This document shows positions 1 to 22,900 of a stretch of DNA of 25,469 nt, piece by piece (position 1 is the first letter of the stretch; each line of letters opens with the position of its first letter). A program made the translations under genes and the position numbers. Origin of the DNA: a virus; the IMG/VR virus record IMGVR_UViG_3300046010_002589, positions 1 through 25,469 of that record; one strand, written 5' to 3'. The notes beneath the pieces were generated by a model. The model saw nothing but the letters and a program-made list of their open reading frames with translations. It was not told the DNA's origin and did not search any database.

Positions 1-388
1 GATCAACATCTTCTCCGGTTTCGGCATTAGATACAGCTTCAATTTCTAATCCCATCTTTTTAGCATGGGCAAAATCCCATTTCATCTCAGTAATGATAAA
101 CACAGGTAACACTCCAAGTTGTTGAGCAGAAACTGCTGCTTCAATCATTAGTGTAGTTTTTCCTGTATCAGATCCTCCTCTAGCTATAGTTACTTGTCCC
201 ATTGGCACTCCCGGGATAGAGAGTGCTTCGGCTACTGCATGTGAGAATGGGATCCATCTTTGTTTTTTAAACTTTGATGATTCTGATAGATTTTTAGATT
301 TTTTGAATGAATCTAAATCAAATCCTTTGTTAGAAGATGACCTGATGGCAACAGATGCTGCATCATTTATAGTGTTTCTTTTGGCCAT
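1..388 (-). CDS. uvsX: UvsX/RecA-like recombinase, N-terminal part (cut by window edge)
   Basis: The first 129 codons of a strand-exchange recombinase are present; the rest lies beyond position 1. I read this frame by hand from the minus strand; it starts at the ATG at 386-388. A Walker A loop reads GGSDTGKTT at residues 71-79 with K77 and T78. It is followed by the strand ending in a likely catalytic Glu (E101, context FIITEMKWDF), which matches the RecA pattern of an acidic residue about 25 residues after the lysine. The loop is closer to the RecA consensus than to that of T4 UvsX. In T4-type phages UvsX forms filaments on single-stranded DNA with gp32 and drives recombination-dependent replication. 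The gene begins only two bases after the gp32-like stop codon, so the two are almost certainly co-transcribed. The first 40 residues are polar and Ser/Lys-rich. Confidence 0.82.
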   Translation of the reverse strand, partial: MAKRNTINDAASVAIRSSSNKGFDLDSFKKSKNLSESSKFKKQRWIPFSHAVAEALSIPGVPMGQVTIARGGSDTGKTTLMIEAAVSAQQLGVLPVFIITEMKWDFAHAKKMGLEIEAVSNAETGEDVD

Positions 389-390
389 AA

Positions 391-1224
391 TTATTCTTTA
401 TCAAATAAATCTTCGAACTTGTCAGCTTTTGGTTGTTTTGTTTGTAGTGTGTATGGAGATGCTTTTTCTTCTTTCTTTTCCCAAGGTAAGTCTCCCATAC
501 CTGGTGTTTCATCTTCATCATCAGTAGTAGAAGCAATAGGAGTATTGTCTTCTTCTTCTTCAGGATTAGCCCACTTTTCAAAAATTTCTTTTAAGCTTTC
601 GTAAGTGTGTTTTTTATTGATAGCAAAGATATCAGGTTGTTCATCTAAGTATGAACGTAATGCTACTGCATCTTCTGTAATAGGTGTAGTTTTTACTCTT
701 GGTGTAAGAATACATTTTACTACTTTACGACCTGCTACTGTATCGTCTGTTCCTTCTACAATGAAGTCACGTCCATCTTGAATATCGGTAAAATCACCGT
801 AATCTTCATTCATAGCAATGTTCATTAATTGAGTGTAAATTTCTTTACCGAACTCCCATAAACGAACTCCTTTGTCTTCTTCACCTCTTACGATAACAGG
901 TGCAAATACTCTCATTTTAGGAGTAATTTTCTTAGCCATTTGCCAATGGTCTGGGTTGTCTGATTTACGAAGTTTTTGTGCTGCTTCTGCAATAGGATCA
1001 GCTTCACCCCAATTAGTCAATGCTAAAATTGGACCTTTAGTGTACCCATAATGGAAATAAACCTCACGGAAAGGAGTAGATTTATTAAATTTAGAAGGCA
1101 CAATACGAATTTGATGTTTTCCTACTTTAGGTTTCCAAAAAATCTTTGTGTAGTCAGTTTTTTCCTTAGATTGTCCTTTGTTGTTAAAGGACTCTAATGT
1201 TTGTTTAATTAAAGATAAATCCAT
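391..1224 (-). CDS. 32: gp32-like single-stranded DNA-binding protein
   Basis: This 277-residue protein resembles the T4 gp32 family of single-stranded DNA-binding proteins. The basic N-terminal stretch (SKEKTDYTKIFWKPKVGKHQ) leads into the core, followed by the conserved block around residues 105-135 (MRVFAPVIVRGEEDKGVRLW, then EFGKEIY). The last 55 residues are strongly acidic, with EEEED and DDEDE runs, and end FEDLFDKE. This is the acidic tail through which gp32 contacts replication partners in T4. The core has no Cys/His zinc site: only one cysteine is present, late in the core (KCILTP). T4 gp32 uses one His and three Cys, so the zinc subdomain appears lost or replaced, as I recall for several marine relatives. 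It lies between an unknown gene and uvsX in a replication block. The leader of 66 bases is A/T-rich and lacks a ribosome binding site. Confidence 0.85.
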   Translation of the reverse strand: MDLSLIKQTLESFNNKGQSKEKTDYTKIFWKPKVGKHQIRIVPSKFNKSTPFREVYFHYGYTKGPILALTNWGEADPIAEAAQKLRKSDNPDHWQMAKKITPKMRVFAPVIVRGEEDKGVRLWEFGKEIYTQLMNIAMNEDYGDFTDIQDGRDFIVEGTDDTVAGRKVVKCILTPRVKTTPITEDAVALRSYLDEQPDIFAINKKHTYESLKEIFEKWANPEEEEDNTPIASTTDDEDETPGMGDLPWEKKEEKASPYTLQTKQPKADKFEDLFDKE

Positions 1225-1760: not shown

Positions 1761-3038
1761 TTATGTTAATTCGTTATAGTTGTTTCCTATTTTTACTTTA
1801 GTTGGGTACTTAAATTTAGATATTATTTCTTTAATTTGTGGTATTTCGTCTTTAACGGCGTCTATTAATATAGAATCGTACGTGTATAACACAATTCTTG
1901 ATTTCAATACTCTAAAATCATTAAATAAATTAAATAATTGTTCAACATTTTGTGATGTTTCGAAATTTTGTATAAGATAATTTAATATTTTTTGAGGATT
2001 AGGATTTTCAATGTCTTTTAAACGAAATATTTTTCCTGATGGCGCCGTAATTGAACCCCCGTATTGTATTTCATCCCAAAGATTATCTGTAAACATGTGT
2101 ACATTCTTAAAGAATGGTCTTTGTTGTAATTCATATCTTATACCACCATATAAATTTTGGAATGTTGTTTCTTTAACTTTTGGTATGTCTTCAGTTTGTA
2201 ATATTTCTGCTATTTGAGCATAAACATTTGTTTCTTTATCGAATTCATATCCTGTTAAAGTCCCTAACAATCGTGGATGGTAACCATTAAAATCAAACTC
2301 TAAATATACATCATTATTAGGAATATAACAAGTTCTTTCACCATTTTCTTTATTTAAAGCAGCATAATTTATGTTGTTAAATGAATTAGAAGGACGACCT
2401 GTTAATGTATATAAATTGTATTGAGTATAAGCTCTTCCTTTACTAATTGAAAATTGAGGTGTGTTATGATCTTTATGATATTTAATAAAGCATTCTTTAT
2501 CTAACCTTATGCCTTCTTTTTCTATTTTAAAGAACACAGTAGTTAATTTATGTAAATACTCAGTATTTTTAATCATATAATTCTGTAGTAATTCGTATAA
2601 ATTCTCACAATATTCATAATGTTTAGATATAGGAATTAAAGTATTTATATTTTTTAATTCTCCGTATCGTGTATATAAATCTGAATTTATGTTAGGGATA
2701 CAAGATGATAAGTCTGGTTTGGTTCCATGTTTATCTATGTAATTGAATGTTATATCATTTATTTTTCCTCCTAAAAAATATTTGGTGTGTTTAGCATCTA
2801 TGGCATATAATTCTTTTTCCGATAAGAATTTTTTAAGAGATTGCCATTTTAAACCTAATGACTCTGTATGATTTATACAAAATATATATCCTTTATCATC
2901 AAATGGTTTAACATATATTAATGATACTTCAGATATAGCAGGATGATAATTGTCATTGTTCGTTATAATATGAACAAAACATTTATCAAAAGACGGTAAG
3001 TGAGGTAATTGATCTTCTTTTTCAATTATATAAAACAT
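1761..3038 (-). CDS. Compact, divergent family A DNA polymerase
   Basis: A 425-residue protein with the polymerase motifs of family A (Pol I type). The template/primer-binding TGRPSN is at 213-218. Motif A is EFDFNGYHPRLL with catalytic D249 and R256. Motif B (O helix) is K289-x3-F293-x3-Y297-G298. Motif C is YTYDSILID with catalytic D388. Both metal-binding aspartates are therefore kept. Three usual residues differ: the motif A glutamate that acts as steric gate is H254, and the HDE of motif C is Y387-D388-S389. Residues 20-155 sit where a 3'-5' exonuclease domain belongs and show its outline (YAIDAKHTKYFLGG like exo II, HYEYCENLYELL like exo III), but the acidic catalytic residues are not visible. 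It is far shorter than E. coli Klenow (about 600) or T7 polymerase (about 700). It sits with gp32-like and uvsX-like genes, where T4 itself uses a family B enzyme. I am confident of the family but not of its activity. Confidence 0.82.
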   Translation of the reverse strand: MFYIIEKEDQLPHLPSFDKCFVHIITNNDNYHPAISEVSLIYVKPFDDKGYIFCINHTESLGLKWQSLKKFLSEKELYAIDAKHTKYFLGGKINDITFNYIDKHGTKPDLSSCIPNINSDLYTRYGELKNINTLIPISKHYEYCENLYELLQNYMIKNTEYLHKLTTVFFKIEKEGIRLDKECFIKYHKDHNTPQFSISKGRAYTQYNLYTLTGRPSNSFNNINYAALNKENGERTCYIPNNDVYLEFDFNGYHPRLLGTLTGYEFDKETNVYAQIAEILQTEDIPKVKETTFQNLYGGIRYELQQRPFFKNVHMFTDNLWDEIQYGGSITAPSGKIFRLKDIENPNPQKILNYLIQNFETSQNVEQLFNLFNDFRVLKSRIVLYTYDSILIDAVKDEIPQIKEIISKFKYPTKVKIGNNYNELT

Positions 3039-3078: not shown

Positions 3079-3576
3079 TTAGGTACCCAAGAAAGCTGCC
3101 AATCCAGGCATTTGTTTATTTACCTCTTCTAAAGTTTGAGTATTTTTATTATATGATATTACTTGATAATTATTACTTAATTTACCTGCTAATTGATCAT
3201 ATGCTTTTTTATCAATTTCTTTAATTAAATTATTAGATGAAGTTAAATCTTTATAAAAGTAACGAACTGGGGAAGCAGTTGAAGGTGAATTTTTATTACC
3301 AGAAAGTATAACCCCTGCAGCAGAAATAGCTGCTAGAGTTGGAATGGAACCAGCTGATGCTACAGCGCTAGGGTTTATGGGTAGAGTATATCGTTCTAAA
3401 AGTTGTGAACTTTCTATATATTCTTTCCCACTATAGTACTTAGAACCATTTATTACTGAGTATGATCCAATGTATGGTTTTTTAGTATTAGGAAAACGTA
3501 ACAAGATATTTTTCCCAAAACCGGTTCCATTAGTATATTGATTTTCTACTATTTTGCTTTTTGGTATTGGTCTCAT
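3079..3576 (-). CDS. Small phage protein, probably virion-associated
   Basis: A 165-residue protein without an assigned function. The N-terminal third has a pattern (PIPKSKI, YTNG, then KKPYIGSYSVINGSKYYSGK) that I recall from small proteins encoded beside baseplate genes in T4-type marine phages. It looks like a small beta module with a Tyr/Gly-rich core. A weakly hydrophobic Ala/Ile-rich stretch at about 70-92 (SAVASAGSIPTLAAISAAGV) could be a membrane-active or packing helix. It starts three bases after the stop of the large hub protein and is the last gene of the tail block before the replication genes, so a structural or tail-assembly role is the best guess. Confidence 0.65.
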   Translation of the reverse strand: MRPIPKSKIVENQYTNGTGFGKNILLRFPNTKKPYIGSYSVINGSKYYSGKEYIESSQLLERYTLPINPSAVASAGSIPTLAAISAAGVILSGNKNSPSTASPVRYFYKDLTSSNNLIKEIDKKAYDQLAGKLSNNYQVISYNKNTQTLEEVNKQMPGLAAFLGT

Positions 3577-17610: not shown

Positions 17611-18669
17611 TTAAGGACATAATGCTGCTGGGTTTATCGGATACCCATTAGTATCTATATCTTGACTTCTAGAAACAACATCTGTAAGTTTTTTGAAACG
17701 CCAGTATGCATTTCCTCCATTGAATGGGATAGTTCCTCCAGCATCTACAAATATTCTGTTAAAATTACCTTCTATCCAAACTGTATTAACTAAACTAAGA
17801 GAACAAGCATTAGAAGGATCAGATGTTATTGATGAAAGTCCTTCAAATATATTAGAAGATGATGGAGAAGGTGTAATACTAGGTGTTGTGCTAGGTGTAA
17901 CACTAATTGATATACTTGGTGTAACAGATGGTGTAGCACTAATTGATATACTTGGTGTTATGCTAGGTGTAATACTAGGTGTTGTGCTAGGTGTAACACT
18001 AATTGATATACTTGGTGTTATGCTAGGTGTAATACTAATACTAGGAGTAATTGATGGTGATGGTTCAGGAGAACAATATCCTTGTGCATAGAAATTATTT
18101 ACATTGTCCCAAGCATCTACACTACGAGCACAAAGACCAAAATCAAAACTTTCACTATTTACAGTAGTAGTATTCCAAGGTATTCCATTACAATCTGTAT
18201 AATACACTGTTACAGGTCCTGTTAATACCCAACCACGACAAGTTGTATCAGGATTAGAACATAAATCTCCAGTTAATGAGTATGATCCTGTATCGCTTGA
18301 AGCTATTATAGATGTAGCACAGAATGATCCTGATATACCGAATGGTACGCTTATATTTTGTAAATTGTAGTTACAATCTACATATTTTATTGTTAATGTT
18401 GATCCTGATGTAGCATTAACAAATGAATATTCAAAACAACATTCACCTAAATTAACACTAAATGTAGCTGTTAAAGATGTATTATCTATAAGTTGCCATC
18501 CTGTTAAAGGAATATCAGTATCGGTATAATTTATAGGTGTTCCATCATAGGGCCAATATAAAATTGTCCAAAACACACCAGTCCATACTATTTTCATTCC
18601 ATATTGAGTTGATTCCCAATAAGGACGTCCATTTTCATATCCTACAAATACAAAGCTTACGTTTAACAT
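17611..18669 (-). CDS. Virion surface stalk protein with Pro/Ser/Thr tandem repeats
   Basis: A 352-residue protein made of several small modules. Residues 1-65 resemble a short phage fibre module (NVSFVFVGYENGRPYW, then IVWTGVFWTILYWP). Two four-cysteine modules follow: C77/78-C99-C117-C137 and C144-C160-C180-C199, each with a VxYxDCN core. Residues 201-272 are a Pro/Ser/Thr/Ile stalk built from TPS and SIS units. The end (285-352) is a Cys-bounded module with FNGGNAYWRF and IDTNGYPINP. I infer an extended protein on the virion surface, possibly a fibre or decoration. The same cysteine module and stalk occur in the 1334-residue neighbour, so they probably belong to one adhesion apparatus. There is no signal peptide. 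The exact host target cannot be told. Confidence 0.7.
   Translation of the reverse strand: MLNVSFVFVGYENGRPYWESTQYGMKIVWTGVFWTILYWPYDGTPINYTDTDIPLTGWQLIDNTSLTATFSVNLGECCFEYSFVNATSGSTLTIKYVDCNYNLQNISVPFGISGSFCATSIIASSDTGSYSLTGDLCSNPDTTCRGWVLTGPVTVYYTDCNGIPWNTTTVNSESFDFGLCARSVDAWDNVNNFYAQGYCSPEPSPSITPSISITPSITPSISISVTPSTTPSITPSITPSISISATPSVTPSISISVTPSTTPSITPSPSSSNIFEGLSSITSDPSNACSLSLVNTVWIEGNFNRIFVDAGGTIPFNGGNAYWRFKKLTDVVSRSQDIDTNGYPINPAALCP
17854..18069 (-). repeat. Tandem-repeat stalk coding region (TPS / SIS units)
   Basis: This stretch encodes residues 201-272 of the stalk protein. It contains a 54-base exact direct repeat (17869-17922 and 17965-18018, spaced 96 bases or 32 codons apart) and a 41-base exact repeat (17937-17977 and 17997-18037, spaced 60 bases or 20 codons). 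Both spacings keep the frame, so copy-number changes would lengthen or shorten the stalk without breaking the protein. Confidence 0.9.
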
Positions 18670-18678
18670 TTATATATT

Positions 18679-19953
18679 TTAATTACAAGGGTTAGTGTTA
18701 CTGATTGTTCCTACCTGCCAATAAATATTGTCATTACAATCTATTGTTTTATCATAGCTACCACCAGGTGTTGTTCTAAATTGTCTTGAACCAGTATTGA
18801 AATAGTTTTTAGTGGTTGCATCCCAAGCTGATATGTTTAATTGAGCAGCTACTTCATCTATTCTACAAGCAAATCCATAATATTCACTTGCAGCAAATAT
18901 TAATCCTATTATTTTAAATATTCCATTAAAATTAGCTACTAAAGCTGATCCTGAATCTCCTCCTACTACAGGAAACGGGCATTGTGCGCTAGTTCTAGTA
19001 AATCCTATAATTTTACTAAAAGTTACAGGAGTCATAGTTCCATCTAAATTATAACCAGATGCTGGTGGGCCTGATGATCCTACAGGTACTGTCATATTCA
19101 AAGCAAAAGTTGTTAAACCACATAATGATCCTGTTTTGGCTCCTGATGTTCTTCCACTGCTGTATAATTCGGGATCACTGTATAGTAATAAGTCAATCTC
19201 AGAAGTTGTAGCAAAAGGCATTGCTGCTGCATATGTAAAACCATACTGTTTAACCGATTCAGAATTTGTTACAGTTGATGAATCTATTGTAATCAAAGCA
19301 CCATCTACCTGATTATAAGCATTAGCCTGTATTGGAACATATCTTACTACTTCTCCTATAACATATGCCGGATTTGTATTTGGTGGGTTAGTTTCCCAAG
19401 GTGAAGGCTGCCATACTATATCCTGATATTCATTTACAGGTGATGAGTTTCTTAATGCTGTATAGAATGGATTTCCTACTACAACGTGGTTATTAGTTAC
19501 TCCTACTAAGGCATTCTTTGTATTATCTACTGCTATGAATCCTAATGTACCCATGTAACCTGATTGGTTCTGTGATATTGTAGAAATACCTCCTTTTAAA
19601 GGTCTAATGTATCCTCTGTTTCCAGGTGGTATATTTAGTCCATATTGTACTCCATCATATATGAAGGGTGCTCTCCAATCATAGCAAGTATTTAAAGTAG
19701 TAGAATCACATGACATTAATTCTATTTTTCCGATTTCAACAACATCAGTTTTGTAAGTAACACCATCAATTTCAATTTCTTTAGGTAATAATTCGTCTTC
19801 AGGTATTTCTTCAATAGGACGTTTTTTATCTACAGTAAAAATAACAGCATGGTCTTCTGTGTATTCTCTATTTGTAAGCTTAAAACCGAAGCCTACCCCA
19901 ACATAATCTGGGGTAGATTCGTATAATTCTTCTATTTTTTTATTTGTTATCAT
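18679..19953 (-). CDS. Trypsin-like serine protease in the adhesin cassette
   Basis: A 424-residue protein with a chymotrypsin-fold protease domain at about residues 130-365. The likely catalytic triad is H156 (GVTNNHVV), D217 (NQVDGALI) and S334 (GGDSGSALV). The first 80 residues (YVGVGFGFKLTNREYTEDHA, then FTVDKKRPIEEIPEDELLPK) look like the N-terminal domain I recall from bacterial proteases of this type, with a GVGxGxK start and a KKxPxEExPxxxxxPKxI loop. A Cys-containing tail follows (DCN, NPCN). It has no signal peptide, so it is probably packaged in or on the virion or acts inside the infected cell. Its start overlaps the stop of the 1334-residue adhesin by four bases (ATGA), which suggests coupled translation and a shared job: cutting the adhesin during assembly or cutting host surface proteins. 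Both are inferences. Confidence 0.82.
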   Translation of the reverse strand: MITNKKIEELYESTPDYVGVGFGFKLTNREYTEDHAVIFTVDKKRPIEEIPEDELLPKEIEIDGVTYKTDVVEIGKIELMSCDSTTLNTCYDWRAPFIYDGVQYGLNIPPGNRGYIRPLKGGISTISQNQSGYMGTLGFIAVDNTKNALVGVTNNHVVVGNPFYTALRNSSPVNEYQDIVWQPSPWETNPPNTNPAYVIGEVVRYVPIQANAYNQVDGALITIDSSTVTNSESVKQYGFTYAAAMPFATTSEIDLLLYSDPELYSSGRTSGAKTGSLCGLTTFALNMTVPVGSSGPPASGYNLDGTMTPVTFSKIIGFTRTSAQCPFPVVGGDSGSALVANFNGIFKIIGLIFAASEYYGFACRIDEVAAQLNISAWDATTKNYFNTGSRQFRTTPGGSYDKTIDCNDNIYWQVGTISNTNPCN

Positions 19954-22900
19954 AGAATATCTAAATATTTGTAAATTGTATTAACTCCTACATTTGGTGA
20001 CACTGGTGGTGTTAAACTAGGTGTTGGTGTTGGTGATTGTGATGGTGCTGGTGGTGGTGGATTTAATGCTACTGTGTTACAATTGATTGATGAATTAAAT
20101 GTAGATCCATTACCTGGGAGTATTATGTTAGACCAAACAGGTGTAAGATTATATGGGCTGTTTAAATCAATTTGGTATATTTTTACTACAGCAACACCTA
20201 AATTAATTGAGTTAACAGCTAAATATAAATTTCCATTTATTTCAAATAAATGACGTGGTGTATCAATTTGTAAAATTACAGATGCTAAACTAATATCTAC
20301 TTCTAAAGCACCATCAGGATAAGAGTATTGAGATAAATACGCTACTTCTAATCCAGTATCTAAAGTACGTCGTCTTCCAATAGTTAATAATTTATTATTT
20401 GTTGTTAATAATATTGAATCTAAACCATCTGGGGCATATATATCAAATAATGTTGTTAAATCACCAGCTGTAACATTTGAGTTAGTTATATCCATTTGGG
20501 TTAATGAAAATATATAAGATCCTGCTGGTGTTGGTGTTGGGTTTAGGGTTGCAATTGTAGTAAGTAATGTTGTATCATTAATAGCTTGTAAAAAGAAGAA
20601 ATAATTACCAAAGATAGATGTTATACCAGATACATTAATTGTTCTATTTAATGCTAATACATTAGGTGTGTTTGTAGGTATCCATTCTTTAATAGTATCA
20701 GTTTGATTACCTTTCCAATATCTAGTTGATGTATGAGTTTCAGCAAAAGCATTAGATGAAAAATCATTAGGAAGTGTCACTGGTGTTGAAGTATTATTAA
20801 TAACATTATATAAATAAGTACCTGTTGTGCTACTGTAATAAACACATCCTAAAGCATTAGCTGGTTGTGGTGTTATGCTTCCTGAGCATATGCTAAATAC
20901 TGTACCTTGGTTACCTCCAGGGGATGTTAAAGTTAATGTTGTGTAATTTAATGGAGCCGATATTGTTATTATTCCTCCACCTGCTTGTTGAATTTCACCT
21001 AAATTAATATTCCCTGATGAAGAACCGGTTACTGTATTTCCATTTATTGTTTGATAACATCCTTTACATAATGATATATTAGGAACTCCTACATTTGTAT
21101 TCCAAGTAAATAATTCACCTGGGTTAGGATTACTATTAGTTCCACCATATGATATTTTAATATTATTTACTGGTTGGCTAAAATTTAAAGAATATGTATA
21201 ATCTCCAGGAAGGTATCCTAGAAAAGCAGAATATGATGGATATGTTGTAACATTAGTTCCTTCACAAACTGGCATTCCTAAGTTACTTAATGGAAAAAAA
21301 TTATCATAAGCTACTGGTCCTGTGTATGTAGGAATTATATTAATTCCATTATAATTCATAGGAGTTGATAGTTTTAAAGGTAATGTTAAACATTCAGGAC
21401 AACTTGATATAGGTAAATTTACATTAATACAACTTGCTAATTGCGAAGCCGCTACTAATTGTGTTTGCGGTGATTGAACTAATGTTAATGCAAATGTTGT
21501 AGGATTAAACTTATACACATTATACCCCATTAAATATATTTCATTATTTACTTGAGCTAAACCACAATCTGTTGTTATAGTAGGTGATATTTGTTTTCTA
21601 AATTCTAATACTCCTGTATTGTAATTATATTGATTTAAAAAATGATAATTTTGGTATTTAGTAAGTACTATAAGTTTATTACCTGAAGTTAGTAATAAAT
21701 CTCCTGCTGGGTCTTCTTGTGGGGGTAACTTAACTTTAAGAGTCCAAGTAGCTACATTTGATGTAATATCATATTCTACTACCATTACACCATTAACATA
21801 TTTATCTACAGGATTATCTACTACATCTTGTTCCGAGGCTATAGAACGTAATTGGAGACCACCTATTCTATTTACAGTCCCTATTAATTTTGTATTACTA
21901 ATAGCAAATAAACCAGTTCCTGGATAGAACTCTGTTCCTCCTGGAAAAGTAGATTCTGGTATTTGAGGTAAAGCAATATATCGGTTAATAGTAGCAGTAA
22001 ATGGATTATCTGTTATGTCATATTCTATTATACTATTATTGTTTAAATTTCCACCATTAACATTCCAAGAATAAGACCATAATTTATTAGAAGTATGTGT
22101 TAATGGTGATATATCAATACCTAACGAAGTTGCAACACTATCATATGGTGCAGCAGGTACATTTAATAATGTAGATGCATTAGTTGAAAAATTATATGAA
22201 TAGTATTGATTTCCTTGTGTTTTATATAATATGGTATTACATGTAGTTGGATTTGGAACATCTTTAATTAAACGTACAGAATACCCACTGGTTTTATTAA
22301 ATCCTTTAAGATCAAGTGTTGCGTTAAAGTAATATAAATCCATGTACACTGCTAATCCTGCTACTGAGCTAGAAGTAGAAGTCCAATGAGGACCGGCAAT
22401 GCCTCTTCCTCCAAATTGTCCGTTTTCTCTTCCACCCCCTGGTAATCCTGTCCATCCTGTTTCATTTGTTGCTCCAGCATTCGGACTGTTCCAAAGTGTA
22501 GTTCCTGTTTGTTTTACTTTACCTCCTGCTACAGTTGTGCCTCCTAAATAATTACGTAATGTTTGAACTTCAGCCTCTGTTGGTATATGATATCCAACAG
22601 GAGCTAATCCACGAGGATCGTTTACAGCATACCAGTTATAAAGTTTATTGTACGTACAACCATTAACTGGGTTGTTATCATAATAACACCACGCCCCTGT
22701 AGTTAAACTATTCCAAGTTGATAGATCTGTAACTTGTGGTATAGGATCACCATTTCTGTAAGTAGTTACATCTAAATTACATGCTGTCCATGTTTGTTCT
22801 CCAATAACAACATCAGGTAAAGCACATGGTGTACATGGTAGTGAAGGAGATGGAGTTGGAGTAATAGAAATACTAGGTGTTCTACTTGGAGATATACTAG

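Follow-up and report, generated by a model that had tools for sequence, protein, structure and literature searches.

The window that we have analysed, an entire IMG/VR record of 25,469 bases, encodes a small DNA polymerase of the family A type inside a T4-type replication block. Since gp43, the polymerase of T4, belongs to family B, the locus raises the question of what such an enzyme does there. A preliminary description of the window had taken it for the replicase of a distant T4 lineage that uses family A, and had described its proofreading region as decayed. The window is a 25-kb fragment, and genome-wide questions were put to its relatives. The open reading frame proved to be real, and D249, H254, D388 and a YDS motif C were present as described (Table 1).

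Table 1. Positions and supporting observations for the polymerase gene, its segments and its neighbours in the window.
Feature	Positions	Strand	Basis or remark
Small family A-type DNA polymerase, 425 aa	1761..3038	minus	ORF, PHROG 17, Klenow profile, AF2 model
Vestigial 3'-5' exonuclease-like domain (DxE lost), residues 1-155	2574..3038	minus	Bst alignment, no conserved acid
Reduced thumb region, residues 172-213	2400..2525	minus	41 residues from IE-G to TGR
Motif A, D249-FNGY-H254	2277..2294	minus	D and H 107/107; 58/58 in partner-fetched set
Motif B, K289-x3-F293-x3-Y297-G298	2145..2174	minus	Klenow R754 position unconserved
Motif C, T-Y387-D388-S389	1866..1883	minus	Y and D 107/107 and 60/60
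165-aa protein, upstream of polymerase	3079..3576	minus	Kept in close relatives
Unnamed partner protein, 153 aa	1291..1752	minus	8 bases downstream of polymerase gene
gp32-like single-strand DNA-binding protein (SSB)	391..1224	minus	Pfam gp32 1.9e-11; PHROG 1192 7.1e-20
UvsX-like recombinase, cut by window edge	1..388	minus	PHROG 97 4.9e-11

The polymerase gene lies in a tight same-strand run formed by a baseplate hub-like gene, the 165-aa protein (which matched no Pfam or PHROG family), the polymerase, the partner, the gp32-like SSB and the UvsX-like recombinase. The matches of the last two supported the T4-type block of the preliminary description. Elsewhere in the window, long proteins with proline/serine/threonine repeat tracts of the TPSISITPS type are encoded at 17611-18669 and 19950-23954, with a protease-like protein between them (18679-19953; PHROG 20754, 1.6e-16).

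In single-sequence searches, the sole convincing match was to PHROG 17 "DNA polymerase" (residues 200-423, 1.5e-8), and the window protein did not match Pfam DNA_pol_A. A profile of 12 homologues matched Klenow at 6e-6, the orthologue of Flavobacterium phage immuto scored above the DNA_pol_A cut-off (42.7 vs 34.3 bits), and 36 of 79 members matched this Pfam model at E up to 0.1. An AlphaFold2 model based on 79 homologues reached a pLDDT of 93.1 and aligned with Bst Pol I at a Z of 27.1 (396/425 residues, rmsd 3.7). Foldseek searches with the same model retrieved the apicoplast Pol at E 2.8e-20, as well as Klenow and Bst. The predicted model thus displayed the Pol I palm/fingers fold, and the family B (gp43-type) motifs SLYPS and DTD were absent from the 425-aa sequence. 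The resemblance to family A polymerases is not due to chance, and the assignment to this family, for which structure prediction and comparison with Klenow had been proposed as a check, was supported.

We have then compared the active-site motifs in 107 sequences, a set that is biased because part of it was fetched with motif patterns, and in a further set retrieved via the partner gene. D249, H254, R215, K289, F293, Y297, Q357, Y387 and D388 were invariant in the 107 sequences, with H254 found in 58/58 and D388 in 60/60 sequences of the partner-fetched set. The counterparts of the catalytic D705 and D882 (D249 and D388) are therefore kept in both sets, the former in 58/58 of the second. The O-helix residues K758, F762 and Y766 correspond to K289, F293 and Y297 (K289-ETT-F293-QNL-Y297-G in the window), present in 107/107 sequences; the counterparts of R668 and Q849 were equally invariant, and that of N845 was found in 104/107.

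The canonical Pol I trio E710/R754/H881 was replaced by His, by an unconserved position and by Tyr, respectively. The His was present at the E710 position in every readable homologue, as the preliminary description had proposed for H254. All five ordinary enzymes that we aligned (E. coli, T7, CRP-3, CRP-235 and the long Pol I of immuto) keep the three residues. Their replacement is a trait of the subfamily, and membership of the superfamily does not require them. E710, a residue reported to be universal among family A enzymes (PMC4882331), has also been assigned to the gate that excludes ribonucleotides (PMC9324360). With these three counterparts replaced, the protein may bind dNTPs differently or weakly. 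The residue after D388 is Ser or Ala in the homologues; S389 is not unique, because Ser occupies the E883 position in CRP-3 according to our alignment and in the active Tt72 enzyme (PMC9324360).

A feature that the preliminary description had missed is the apparent loss of almost the entire thumb. The region from IE-G to TGR, which spans 126 residues in E. coli Pol I, has 41 here and only 22 in the homologue of Microcystis phage Mel-JY01, which suggests that the thumb is nearly absent. In a profile alignment, its helix anchor IEKEGI corresponds to IERNGV of Klenow. The fingers are also small, with 40 residues between motifs A and B vs 53 in E. coli Pol I.

Structure comparison of the predicted model aligned 396-404 of the 425 residues to Bst residues 300-876. 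As this leaves at most ~30 residues unaligned, the N-terminal 155 residues fall mostly on the exonuclease-like domain. The assignment rests on structure, because the profile comparison with the Klenow exonuclease that had been proposed gave no match (E 0.2-0.6). In a register placed by eye on the predicted strands, which no profile alignment to the Klenow exonuclease anchors, the 107 sequences contained no conserved acidic residue at positions 22-28, the strand expected to carry the DxE motif of DEDD 3'-5' exonucleases, and neither 85 nor 143 (Exo II/Exo III) was a conserved Asp. Other acids of the N-terminal part are conserved, though (E6, E59, D95, E142 and E145). For the DxE strand, the result agreed with the earlier view that the region lacks visible acidic catalytic residues. 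The term "decayed" fits the lost motif, but not the domain as such: both halves of the polymerase are under purifying selection, with a dN/dS of 0.07-0.26 against close relatives. The exonuclease-like domains of Bst and Taq Pol I are likewise inactive.

Some relatives encode a separate DEDD-type exonuclease of 252-261 aa (L211:214-972, minus strand; also L212, L213 and L214), which in L211 matches PHROG 403 "DNA polymerase exonuclease subunit" (3.6e-62) and in all four loci ends with a zinc-ribbon-like CPECG...CNSC motif. We have considered it as the proofreader of the small polymerase and rejected it: although present in some relatives, it is unlinked to the polymerase cluster.

An altered active site could belong to a specialised polymerase with a different substrate choice, devoted to lesion bypass or tolerant of ribonucleotides or modified nucleotides. 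The invariant His at a gate position reported as universally Glu, the loss of R754, the absence of the DxE motif and of proofreading and the small fingers are consistent with this, but Y297 and F293 are kept, the His could still close the pocket, and the replication-operon setting gives no pointer to lesions. We regard such a specialisation as rather unlikely. Separately, we have asked whether the gene is linked to deazaguanine DNA. The TGT model (PF01702) was above cut-off in 0/14 records and also missed the annotated DpdA of immuto, making this search uninformative.

The partner lies just downstream of the polymerase in 99/99 testable loci and, when the search was started from the partner, the polymerase was found upstream of it in 57/57 loci. 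The linkage extends to SSB (83/83 loci), FEN nuclease (47/47), DnaB (47/47) and UvsX (46/47). Polymerase, partner, gp32-like SSB, UvsX, FEN nuclease and DnaB form a conserved operon. The partner and the polymerase family occurred in the same six phage records, beyond which other phage polymerases gave weak matches only. The partner is the better conserved of the two, at roughly 50-60% where the polymerase shows 36-45%. Its sequence matched nothing in NCBIfam or the PDB, nothing in Pfam above the cut-off and nothing credible in PHROG, and the resemblance of its model to ferredoxin-like or origin-binding-domain folds was weak (best Z 5.6) and was treated as uninformative.

This gene order bears on a second alternative, in which the enzyme would extend UvsX-made D-loops in recombination-dependent synthesis instead of filling Okazaki gaps. 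Indeed, the gp32-like SSB accompanies the polymerase without exception and UvsX does so almost without exception; FEN and DnaB are, however, equally linked, and D-loop extension in T4 is carried out by the family B enzyme, so we consider this improbable. It is less probable still that the protein is a non-catalytic scaffold derived from a polymerase. The loss of the thumb and of the exonuclease motif and the replacement of E710, R754 and H881 could be read that way, but both catalytic Asp and the K758, F762, Y766 and Q849 counterparts are invariant down to ~30% identity.

We have next asked which polymerase replicates these genomes. A family B polymerase (PF00136) was detected in 11/13 records above 100 kb that carry the small polymerase, namely nine IMG/VR contigs, Mel-JY01 and LR756508, and the family B exonuclease domain (PF03104) was present in those same 11 records. 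One of the relatives, G004, has 11.6 kb in common with the window at 93.2% DNA identity. Its family B polymerase (PHROG 262, 1.7e-159) is intact, with the motifs DIE, NSEFFD, YNIRD, DFTSLYPS and SDTDS, and is followed by a processivity-factor (clamp-like) gene. For the phage of the window, the evidence against a replicase role comes from this contig, 93% identical over 11.6 kb. The two other records differ from each other. The T4-like phage immuto encodes a 777-aa Pol I with an exonuclease domain (PF00476 2.8e-56, PF01612 9.9e-11; L131:16855-19188), its genome gave no family B match, and it has likely swapped its replicase for this full-length Pol I. In the other (G010, a 111-kb contig that may be incomplete), neither a family B polymerase nor a second full-length Pol I was found. 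As a separate observation, the family B gene of G002 is in two pieces (L218:755-3556, minus strand), separated by an ORF that resembles a GIY-YIG homing endonuclease, and the family B matches of G009 and LR756508 are likewise distributed over different frames.

Rhodothermus phage RM378 had been invoked as the precedent for a split family A polymerase. In RM378, the polymerase and exonuclease domains do lie in different genes, but both are family B; no family A match was found, nor the small polymerase or its partner. The analogy thus fails. The preliminary description had also recognised that a family B polymerase elsewhere would speak against its reading, and near-identical relatives encode one, with exonuclease motifs. 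That the small polymerase is the replicase is therefore extremely improbable: its place in a T4-type replication block, and the case of immuto, where a T4-like phage without detected family B can rely on family A, are outweighed by the family B polymerase with exonuclease in 11/13 large records, including the 93%-identical relative, and by the separate 777-aa Pol I with exonuclease in immuto itself, leaving a lineage with family A as replicase unsupported.

The reading that we favour, at somewhat better than even chances, is that of an accessory DNA polymerase of family A, deficient in proofreading and with a reduced thumb, encoded in a conserved operon and coexisting with the real replicase of the phage. 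The main replicase would usually be a gp43-type family B polymerase with its clamp, and the small polymerase beside it would make short DNA stretches, probably closing the gaps that remain once RNA primers have been removed by the FEN nuclease, or those left by recombination. The Pol I function would then be split over separate genes, FEN nuclease and small polymerase. The invariant partner may take over from the missing thumb in helping the polymerase to grip DNA; gene order suggests that the two possibly bind each other. Observed here are the fold prediction, catalytic-residue conservation, gene order and coexistence in relatives; activity and role are inferred from them, and none of these observations separates gap filling from lesion bypass or D-loop extension. 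To our knowledge, T4 itself manages without such an enzyme, which counts against an accessory polymerase. More tentatively, we propose a two-subunit polymerase, a dedicated second enzyme in which an unrelated protein of ~150 aa stands in for the thumb of a minimal Pol I and His for the Glu gate; this is possible, although we would not expect it.

The small polymerase is encoded in at least 586 IMG/VR stretches and the partner in at least 575. Among bacterial genome contigs, it appeared only in seven metagenome-derived or uncultured bins (L223-L229), 3/7 of them Flavobacteriales, and these copies are probably stray phage contigs. It represents a widespread, previously undescribed variant subfamily of family A: the immuto gene was already annotated "DNA polymerase family A", and our literature search, with many subscription journals outside its coverage, found no description of a thumbless, His-gated subfamily or of the polymerase-partner pair. 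If active, it would be a natural family A polymerase that departs from a supposedly universal residue (E710) and almost lacks a thumb, and so a test of other solutions to the exclusion of ribonucleotides and the gripping of DNA. Unlike T4, many T4-like phages, among them some with Flavobacterium hosts, possess two DNA polymerases, in most cases from different families, and the locus draws attention to a conserved but unstudied pair of proteins in a core replication gene cluster.

Far-T4 phages have been described with T4-like replication genes (PMC4360716). The nearest known counterpart is the Immutovirus "DNA polymerase family A" (immuto35A_1, QQO91919.1), a homologue with ~35% identity over 99%, the same partner and the same gene order; immuto differs in having a full-length Pol I besides, and no family B match. 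The large fragments of Bst, E. coli and Taq Pol I share with the small polymerase the predicted fold, the catalytic Asp and the motif B residues, whereas in the latter the thumb region is reduced to 41 residues (E. coli, 126), E710 is replaced by His and H881 by Tyr, and R754 is lost. T4 gp43 and the split polymerase of RM378 are replication polymerases of T4-like phages, but of family B. Finally, Thermus phage Tt72 Pol A is an active phage family A enzyme that also has Ser at the E883 position but, in contrast to the small polymerase, keeps E389 (= E710) and displays strong proofreading (PMC9324360).
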